From Tannerella sp. (GTDB lineage: Bacteria > Bacteroidota > Bacteroidia > Bacteroidales > Tannerellaceae): DNA of 32,672 nt. This document shows positions 4,636 through 32,672 of this stretch, in pieces. Every line of letters begins with the position of its first letter. Positions within the stretch are counted from its first letter, which is position 1. The notes under the pieces are model-generated. The model saw only the letters and a list, made by a program, of their open reading frames with translations, had not been told where the DNA came from and did no database searches. Both the position numbers and the translations under genes were made by a program. The stretch is from positions 1-32,672 of the forward strand of contig JAIRZY010000036.1 of the NCBI GenBank assembly GCA_031266995.1, given 5' to 3'.

Positions 4636-4988
4636 TGCCTGACCTGAATTTTCATCAAAATCAATATCTGTCTTTAGATTAAACGCTTAATACGCGAGCG
4701 TTTCTTTTCGTCATACGCCGGGATGAAGAAATCCGTGCGAAAACAGGTTTCATATCTGTAGAGATAAGATTCATATATATACGGATAAGTTTCATCTCCA
4801 TAGAGACAGGTTTCATCTCCGCAGAGATGGGTTTCATCTCCATAGAGATGGCTTTCATCTCTTCGGAGATGAGTTTCATCTGTATACAAATGGTTTTCAT
4901 CTCTGCAGAGATGAAACTGATCCGTATATATATGAATCTTATCTCTATAGATATGGCGACGCAATTTCCCGAAAGACGGGTTCCCGCG
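4636..4988 (+). repeat. dispersed intergenic repeat element copy 1 (stem-loop / 10 x 21-bp dyad array / stem-loop)
   Basis: Aligns along its length with the reverse complement of 12475-12850: shared flank catcaaaatcaatatctRtcttta...cttaatacgcgagcgtttcttttcgtca, shared 21-bp array, shared end ...atggcgacgNaatttcccg. Array units at 4747-4956. Confidence 0.9.
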
Positions 4989-5315
4989 TGGCTATAAATA
5001 TATGTATCGTATTGCCGTATTCCGAATCCGGAGGATTATACTGTGAACGGTATGGTTTTGTGTCCGAACCAAGAGATTCAAAGATTTCTAAGGATACTGT
5101 TCAGATAGATGCGCTCTCTTCGGGAGCGGTTGTGCAGCAGAAATCAAGATTGCCCTGCATGGAAACAAAGAATTTAGCGAACGATGTGATTTTTTTTCAC
5201 CTTAAGAGGAATGAAATCTTGAATAAGTTCGTATTTTTGCGACCCCGAACGGAAACATCTTGAAACGGCAAAGCGGGAAGGTACTTAATATTAACTGGAT
5301 AAATGTTTTTTTGAG

Positions 5316-12419: not shown

Positions 12420-12474
12420 AGATTCCATGATTCGGTTATTGTTCCCGACGGAAGGCATACGGAAGATTTTTATC

Positions 12475-12850
12475 CCCCGGATACCCGCATGTCGGGAAAT
12501 TTCGTCGCCATATCTGTAGGTATGAAATCCATATCTATAGGTATAAGTTTCATATCTATAGGTATGAAATCCATCTCTATAGAGATGAAAACCATTTGTA
12601 GACAGATGAAACTCATCTCTGCAGATATGAAACCCATCTCTGAAGAGATGAAACTTATCTCTGAAGAGATGAAATTTATCTCTATAGATATGAAACTTAT
12701 ACCTATAGATATGAATCTTATCTCTATAGATATGAAACCGCTTTTCGCACAGATTTCTTCGCCCCTGCGTGTGACGAAAAGAAACGCTCGCGTATTAAGC
12801 ATTTAATTTAAAGATAGATATTGATTTTGATGGAAATTCCGGCCAGTCCG
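12475..12850 (-). repeat. dispersed intergenic repeat element copy 2, inverted relative to copy 1 (11 x 21-bp dyad array)
   Basis: Array units exactly 21 bp from 12510 to 12740, e.g. atctctatagagatgaaaacc, atctctgaagagatgaaactt. Flanks match the reverse complement of copy 1. Confidence 0.9.
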
Positions 12851-26720: not shown

Positions 26721-26753
26721 TGGCCGCCAAAGCATGAAATGACGGCAAAATAC

Positions 26754-26959
26754 AGCGATACATCGGGCCAATGCAGCGATACATTGCACCGATGTAGCGA
26801 TACATTACGCCAATGCAGCGATACATTGCACCAATGTTGCGATACATTGCACCAATGCAGCGATACATTACACCAATGTAGCGATACATTGAGCCAATGC
26901 AGCGATACATTTTGCCAATGTAGCGATACATTTGTCCGATGCAGCGATACATTTTGCCC
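26754..26959. repeat. 21-bp tandem array (agcgatacattgcaccaatgY), about 9.8 units, alternating 42-bp dimers
   Basis: Units start every 21 bp from 26754; junction alternates TGC|AGCG and TGT|(A/T)GCG strictly. CAATGTA-GCGA-TACATTG hairpins occur at alternate junctions. Confidence 0.95.
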
Positions 26960-31775: not shown

Positions 31776-32350
31776 AAACTATCATAACGATATGTTCTTA
31801 TTTATATATAAACATCAATGATTCGGGCTAAAAGAAATCAATTTTTTGAAAAATCAAAATTCGGGGAAGGCGAAGATTCGAGGAAATAAAACAAATCAGA
31901 AATCCATAAATTAAAAAATATTTTTCATGAATATCTCATTTTTATATTTTCCCCGACGGCCACTCCTGACGCCTCTGTGGAGCGACCTGTATACTTCGCA
32001 CGGGGACGGGGTTGCAACTCTCCTGCAGGCCGGCATCTTTTAGAACTAAATGGCCTCAAACTCGAAACACCATACATGGCCTGCGCAGGAGACATATCCT
32101 TTACGTCTTTTCACATTCTTCTCCTCCGGCTGTCTTCCGGAAATGGGATACGGCAAAAAACGGGAGGGGATGAAATAACATTTGTTTTGATTCCGTTACT
32201 CGAACCGTCTTCGGGCAACAGCCCGAAAAAAAACAGGCAATTGAATGAATCAACTGCCCGTACAGGATAAACTTCCGCCCGCTTATCGGTTGAAGTATCG
32301 CTTCGTCTCTGACAAAAGACGGAATAAACCCGAAATGTCCATTAGCGCAT

Positions 32351-32502
32351 TCTCTGCCGCAAGTTGCGGCAGACCGTCCCCCACGAGGGGACATCCTGCC
32401 GGAAAATCCGGGAGACTTTCCACCATGAGTGGCAACCTTGCCGGAAGTTCCGGGAGATTTGCCACTGTGGGTGGTAACCTTGCCGCAAGTTCCGACAGAA
32501 CT
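32351..32502. repeat. 42-bp tandem repeat, ~3.6 units, each with two dyads
   Basis: Register at 32351, 32393, 32435, 32477. Dyads include CTGCCGCAAgTTGCGGCAG and GTCCCCcacgaGGGGAC; later units CCGGAAgTTCCGG and CCAC...GTGG. Confidence 0.85.
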
Positions 32503-32672
32503 GATCGGAACCGGCTCCGGTTCTGAAAAGTTACGACTGAACTGATCGGAATCGGCTCCGGTTTTGAAGAGTTACGACTGAACTGATCGGAATCGACTCC
32601 GGTTCTGAAAAGTTACGACTGAACTGATCGGAATCGGCTCCGGTTCTGAAAAGTTACGACAGAACTGATCGG
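32503..32672. repeat. 41-bp tandem repeat (gatcggaatcggctccggttctgaaaagttacgactgaact), more than 4 units, runs off window end
   Basis: Exact register at 32503, 32544, 32585, 32626, 32667. Confidence 0.97.

Follow-up and report, generated by a model that had tools for sequence, protein, structure and literature searches.

The window analysed here is the whole of contig C80 (32,672 nucleotides) from a Tannerella sp. draft genome (MAG) of 2.94-Mb in 284 contigs that is 93% complete with 7% contamination. Near its right end lies an array of six hairpins of two alternating kinds, which spans about 32353-32475 with hairpin centres 21 bp apart (Table 1). All six palindromes reported in the first-pass annotation are present, each as a single copy in the window, and the 42-bp unit proposed there was recovered by TRF (period 42 at 32355-32494), after which a 41-bp array runs to the contig end (32487-32672). 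The interval originally assigned to the array, 32351-32502, does hold it, but the feature reaches further, as the element that contains it begins at 32329. Hairpin 4 has the palindrome described, but a T·C mismatch interrupts its full stem (TTTCCAC/GTGGCAA), which leaves this stem half changed.

Both coupled arm changes that had been pointed out, C-G to G-C and C-G to A-T, were also found. As these are the only two two-sided base-pair changes in the window, the window alone is thin evidence of coupling, which the wider sets described below confirm. The predicted fold of 32340-32505 is very stable (z = -5.9 for the RNA of each strand, z = -6.3 for DNA), and in each case 0 of 200 shuffles were equally stable.

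Table 1. Coordinates of the hairpins and of the left end of the element in the window
Feature	Position	Strand	Basis
Presumed left 5-bp target duplication, ATAAA	32324..32328		position only; right copy past contig end
Left terminal inverted repeat (TIR), CCCGAAATGTCCATTAG	32329..32345	+	54 genome sites; inverted partner at the right end of the 15 complete copies
Subterminal left leader, CGCATTC	32346..32352	+	conserved in 18-copy alignment
Hairpin 1, TCTGCCGCAA-g-TTGCGGCAGA	32353..32373 (palindrome 32354-32372)		palindrome scan
Hairpin 2, GTCCCC-cacga-GGGGAC	32376..32392		palindrome scan
Hairpin 3, CCGGA-aaa-TCCGG	32399..32411		palindrome scan
Hairpin 4, TTTCCAC-catga-GTGGCAA, one T·C mismatch	32417..32435 (palindrome 32420-32432)		
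Hairpin 5, CCGGAA-g-TTCCGG	32441..32453		palindrome scan
Hairpin 6, TTGCCAC-tgtgg-GTGGTAA	32459..32477 (palindrome 32462-32474)		palindrome scan
Second array, 41-bp units, GAACCGG-ct-CCGGTTC type palindromes	32487..32672		TRF; contig end cuts array, right TIR absent

Elsewhere in the window, 4640-5010 and 12466-12845 form an inverted pair belonging to a second repeat family, in which other fixed end modules flank a 21-bp palindrome array (CATCTCTATAGAGATG); further copies in the same genome keep the ends and differ in their cores (e.g. CATCCCGTACGG in L214). At 26749-26953, directly downstream of a tRNA gene, the window holds yet another array of 21-bp palindromes (CAATGTA-gcga-TACATTG), the third of this kind, and only two other places in the genome are related to it.

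A dispersed element and its probable IS1380-type relatives

The six hairpins make up the left half of an element that is dispersed in the genome, where a blast search with 32340-32672 returned 68 matches. The element starts with the TIR CCCGAAATGTCCATT, and the contig end cuts the window copy so that its right end is absent. With at most 1 mismatch, a 15-mer of the TIR occurs at 54 sites in the genome (0 for the reversed control); a few of these sites stand single and are possibly due to chance. Many copies start with WCCCGAAATGTCCATTAGCGCATTCTCTGCCGCAAG or a near variant, and complete copies end with the inverted repeat CCAATGGACATTTCGGG. The 15 complete elements are 92-590 bp long, and those on contigs C44, C205, C55 and C276 carry the 41-bp block of the second array before the right TIR. 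When elements from this genome and from sister species were taken together, 19 of the 33 complete ones had the same 5 bases on both flanks, against a mean of 4.5 and a maximum of 11 after shuffling, and these 5-bp target duplications are AT-rich.

Genes were predicted with a simple model of codon usage for which the window served as training set; none of them contains a mapped copy (0/37), and all mapped copies are intergenic. In 24 of 34 cases the left-hand gene faces the element, and 7 of the 12 two-sided cases are convergent. For the copy on C189, the left gene is present in 32 genomes of other relatives, in which the right neighbour is non-syntenic. Two elements, at the end of C205 and at the start of C55, have an identical right flank and unlike left flanks, a pattern that may stem from a mixture of strains, from arrays that recombined or from a join made in the assembly; given the 7% contamination of the MAG, some of the element copies may come from another strain.

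With a probability of about 0.85, the sequence between 32329 and the contig end represents the left portion of an IS1380-type MITE that is non-autonomous and encloses a minisatellite in which hairpins of ~21 bp alternate. The elements are short and multi-copy, have TIRs at both ends and a 5-bp duplication, and no Pfam match was found in the frames of the array; the identification draws on the TIRs, the duplications, the dispersal, the intergenic sites and an element of a sister species that has the same TIRs and a broken transposase frame of probable IS1380 type. This last element, in genome G028, is 1543-bp long, and its two ends agree at 22 of their first 23 bases. Pieces of its broken frame match the IS1380-family model NF033539 at 1.6e-11, 1.6e-18 and 1.9e-25, each below the 180-bit curated cut-off because the frame is broken. 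Decayed relatives are found in further genomes of the genus, and insertion sequences sharing the TIR in the sister genomes G028, G007 and G001. One IS1380-type copy, on contig C147 of G022, shows a large internal deletion with both ends kept, and it is possibly a MITE precursor.

Against the MITE identity, the IS1380 family model found no transposase in the draft assembly that carries the array, no empty site was seen, and the G028 match is in pieces below the cut-off. However, an insertion sequence with a shared TIR in the same genome is no absolute requirement for a MITE, as the parents can be lost or unassembled, and we infer that the elements were moved in trans by an IS1380-type transposase. 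Moreover, five sister species (G016, G019, G021, G022 and G033) have arrays with the same linkers as those used below for which a recognisable TIR was not found, and a MITE is therefore not the sole context of the arrays; several same-linker arrays of the carrier genome also have decayed TIRs or none.

Of 37 same-genus genomes, 14 have the TIR, this one among them, and a single weak match came from another genus; a collection that bears names points to the MAG Tannerella sp. Gx485_bin220 as a carrier. Copy number differs widely between sister species. When the linkers were sought order-wide, 6 of 392 other genomes gave single matches, which is close to the control rate, and the linker family is therefore limited to the genus. 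In sister species, the loci L137:1032-1262 and L130:948-1628 combine the same TIRs with very different palindrome-rich interiors (23-bp CAAAGACGCTTTGTCCGAACGAA units and CGTCCCGGCCGGGACG, respectively).

Hairpin arrays and the coupling of their arms

The bodies of 35 elements contain 291 palindromes, compared to 91 in dinucleotide shuffles, and 139 of their 256 successive centre spacings are 20.5-21 bp (0.9 in shuffles); a walk of the phase that began at the left anchor was too blurred by drift to be of use. The two hairpin classes alternate, and their stems vary from array to array in free combination: CCGGAA/TTCCGG, CGCAC/GTGCG or CTGCA/TGCAG in class one, and TTTCCCC/GGGGAAA, TTGCCAC/GTGGCAA or TGTACA/TGTACA in the alternating partner, class two. 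In 3 of 19 elements the array runs in the opposite orientation with respect to the TIR ends, and head-to-head and tail-to-tail junctions are both present among the arrays. Furthermore, both loop orientations were observed in 8 of 17 cases (18% expected, p = 0.009), a test in which orientation was scored locally, as inverted arrays otherwise inflate the count; for the TTGCCAC hairpin, loop inversion was seen in 0 of 9.

Coupling of the arm changes, claimed from the window, persisted in larger alignments across element copies and species, so that the outcome named in the first-pass annotation as refuting it, arms that change without coupling, did not arise. For one of them, 10 copies were picked by the TIR plus the 5-base loop in hairpin 2, since a whole-family alignment misplaced 4- versus 5-base loops. 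In this set 88% of pair cells were standard, compared to 25-47% in slid controls, and the covariation score (0.138 vs 0.058) was matched by 0 of 500 shuffles. Two-sided changes were present in only 4 of 20 pairs, a value that 153 of 500 shuffles reached, and uncoupled states were C·C and G·G at pair 32-38 and an unpaired pair 28-42 in 9 of the 10 copies.

We also fetched hairpins by their linkers (ACTTTCC-N(6-12)-GGAAACCTT) over 41 same-genus genomes, a pattern that selects linkers and outer stem, not pairing; as it fixes the outer stem, the inner pairs alone were tested. Among the 53 distinct variants obtained from 8 genomes (eight species), the inner pairs were Watson-Crick in 47 (89%) and 45 (85%), whereas permuted variants reached 38-39% (maxima 58% and 64%), although in this test and in the 10-copy one the copies are related and the shuffles overstate significance. 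Eight fully paired inner combinations were found: CC/GG, TA/TA, GA/TC, CA/TG, GG/CC, GC/GC, AA/TT and CG/CG. A pairing figure of 83% carries no weight as evidence, because its half-units were selected by pairing.

Recent changes within arrays are mostly one-armed, with 131 one-sided changes making or breaking a pair and 15 compensated. G·T did not exceed A·C either in single-type clusters (16 vs 20) or in the linker-fetched variants (3 vs 6), in a test that has little power if the arrays are transcribed in either direction. Mismatch strand bias gave no signal.

Explanations for the persistent pairing

We favor the possibility that the pairing persists through DNA template switching and repeat slippage over selection on an RNA, and we give this copying mechanism slightly less than even odds; taken together with the MITE identity as one joint explanation, we consider it an even bet. 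Slippage and unequal exchange would make the arrays grow and homogenize. During replication, the nascent strand could fold back or switch template within a hairpin, copying one arm onto the other; this would rewrite both arms at once, in some cases with an inversion of the loop or of a stretch of the array, and would keep palindromes without a conserved sequence. With a step of 21 or 41-42 bp, two or four turns of the helix, neighbouring hairpins would come to lie on one face of the DNA. Such copying accounts for the loop and array inversions, the junction types and a palindromy that is blind to sequence, and it is in agreement with inner pairs being kept in the linker-selected variants despite complete turnover of the letters. 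The lack of loop inversion in the TTGCCAC hairpin speaks against it, and as one-armed changes are common within arrays, hairpin repair is not fast.

Alternatively, hairpins transcribed near gene 3' ends could protect mRNA ends or attenuate read-through irrespective of their sequence, as REP/BIME-like elements, and selection would then act on the RNA. The intergenic position with genes facing the element, the very stable folds on both strands and the coupled arm changes are consistent with this. However, RNA selection predicts tolerance of wobble pairs, of which the G·T and A·C counts gave no sign, and recent stem changes are mainly uncompensated; a position near 3' ends would also result if insertions into promoters are selected against. 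The Rfam search of the window gave no match at the array, its only match being a tRNA, and no T-tract terminator was found at the array itself. The structural RNA that the first-pass annotation implied is thus not supported, given the predominance of one-armed recent changes, the lack of a G·T excess and the Rfam result, and we regard selection on RNA as unlikely, if still the strongest of the selective explanations.

Selection could also act on the DNA, with phased palindromes serving as cruciforms, supercoil buffers or sites for structure-specific proteins. The two-helical-turn spacing, the prevalence of the same periods in other arrays of this genome and a palindromy without conserved sequence, which would suit a reader of structure, point in this direction, but stems of 5-9 bp make weak cruciforms and copy number varies widely among sister species, so that we consider it improbable. 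The complete turnover of stem sequences makes a single sequence-specific dimeric DNA-binding protein unlikely as well. Least credible of all is a 14-residue repeat protein under protein-level selection. A frame is open over 32245-32526, and some frame is open in 9 of 13 complete copies; nevertheless, up to 5 of 6 frames are open together, as expected of stop-poor repeats. Many copies have a 41-bp period and keep no fixed frame, and as 41 is not a multiple of 3, the frame shifts at each unit.

A broader proposal is that the genus has a DNA-level process that makes and rewrites palindromes at two-helical-turn spacing, generating strong covariation without RNA function, with MITEs only carrying some of the arrays. 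We put this forward as a speculative option, supported by the tandem arrays of the genome. In a 222-kb sample including the window, 14 of the 16 strong arrays detected by TRF have periods of 20-23 or 40-43 (10 of 12 when the window is left out); the sequences of these 14 are largely unrelated, and 8 of the 14 consensus units exceed at least 95 of 100 shuffles in palindromy. In small samples, the rate of arrays per Mb was 63 in this genome, 23 and 26 in two sister species, and 10 and 0 in two other families.

When the two arms of a stem change together, this is usually held to be the best evidence that an RNA is functional. In the present case, one genus has dozens of arrays in which coupling is strong, yet the inversion of loops and arrays, the recent changes in one arm and the lack of a wobble bias are signs that copying could produce it, and the genus could serve as a natural test bed for mutational versus selective covariation.

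Comparison with known systems

Template switching in replication has been described to create and repair hairpins and to explain coupled multi-base changes of both arms in RNA genes (PMC8794818); the hairpins discussed here are instead in MITE minisatellites, and the process is inferred from their patterns alone. The cited passages on REP/BIME and REPIN describe clustered intergenic palindromes moved by RAYT (Y1) transposases (PMC3733652, PMC3116915). Such clusters resemble the Tannerella arrays, but as described there they are conserved in sequence and are without the TIR and TSD of a DDE element. RAYT (Y1_Tnp, PF01797) had 0 matches in the carrier genome, whereas 5 of the 14 control genomes contain it. 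BOX elements of Streptococcus pneumoniae share the modular plan of fixed ends and variable tandem units, with boxA and boxC at the ends, a variable number of boxB, stem-loops and over-representation between convergent genes (PMC3049150). However, they belong to an unrelated lineage, no IS parent is given in that paper, and a turnover of stem sequences is unpublished for them.

The closest in kind are BrickBuilt and MITE464/PgRS of Porphyromonas gingivalis, intergenic MITEs in which a tandem minisatellite of 23 or 41 nt stands between fixed ends with short TIRs; long stem-loops are predicted for them and they cause assembly gaps (PMC4596501). They are likewise Bacteroidales MITEs with a minisatellite inside, but their TIRs match elements of the IS5 family rather than IS1380, and their units are described as direct repeats, without alternating palindromes that turn over their letters. 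The BrickBuilt 23-nt repeat AGAYCATARTATCCTCTCRTRTG had 0 matches in the window at 3 mismatches, and its IS5-type TIR GAGACCTTTGCA is not shared. The Tannerella element is outside the BrickBuilt family and, as MITE-borne minisatellites were already known, it represents a second Bacteroidales lineage of them, with a probably different parent IS family.
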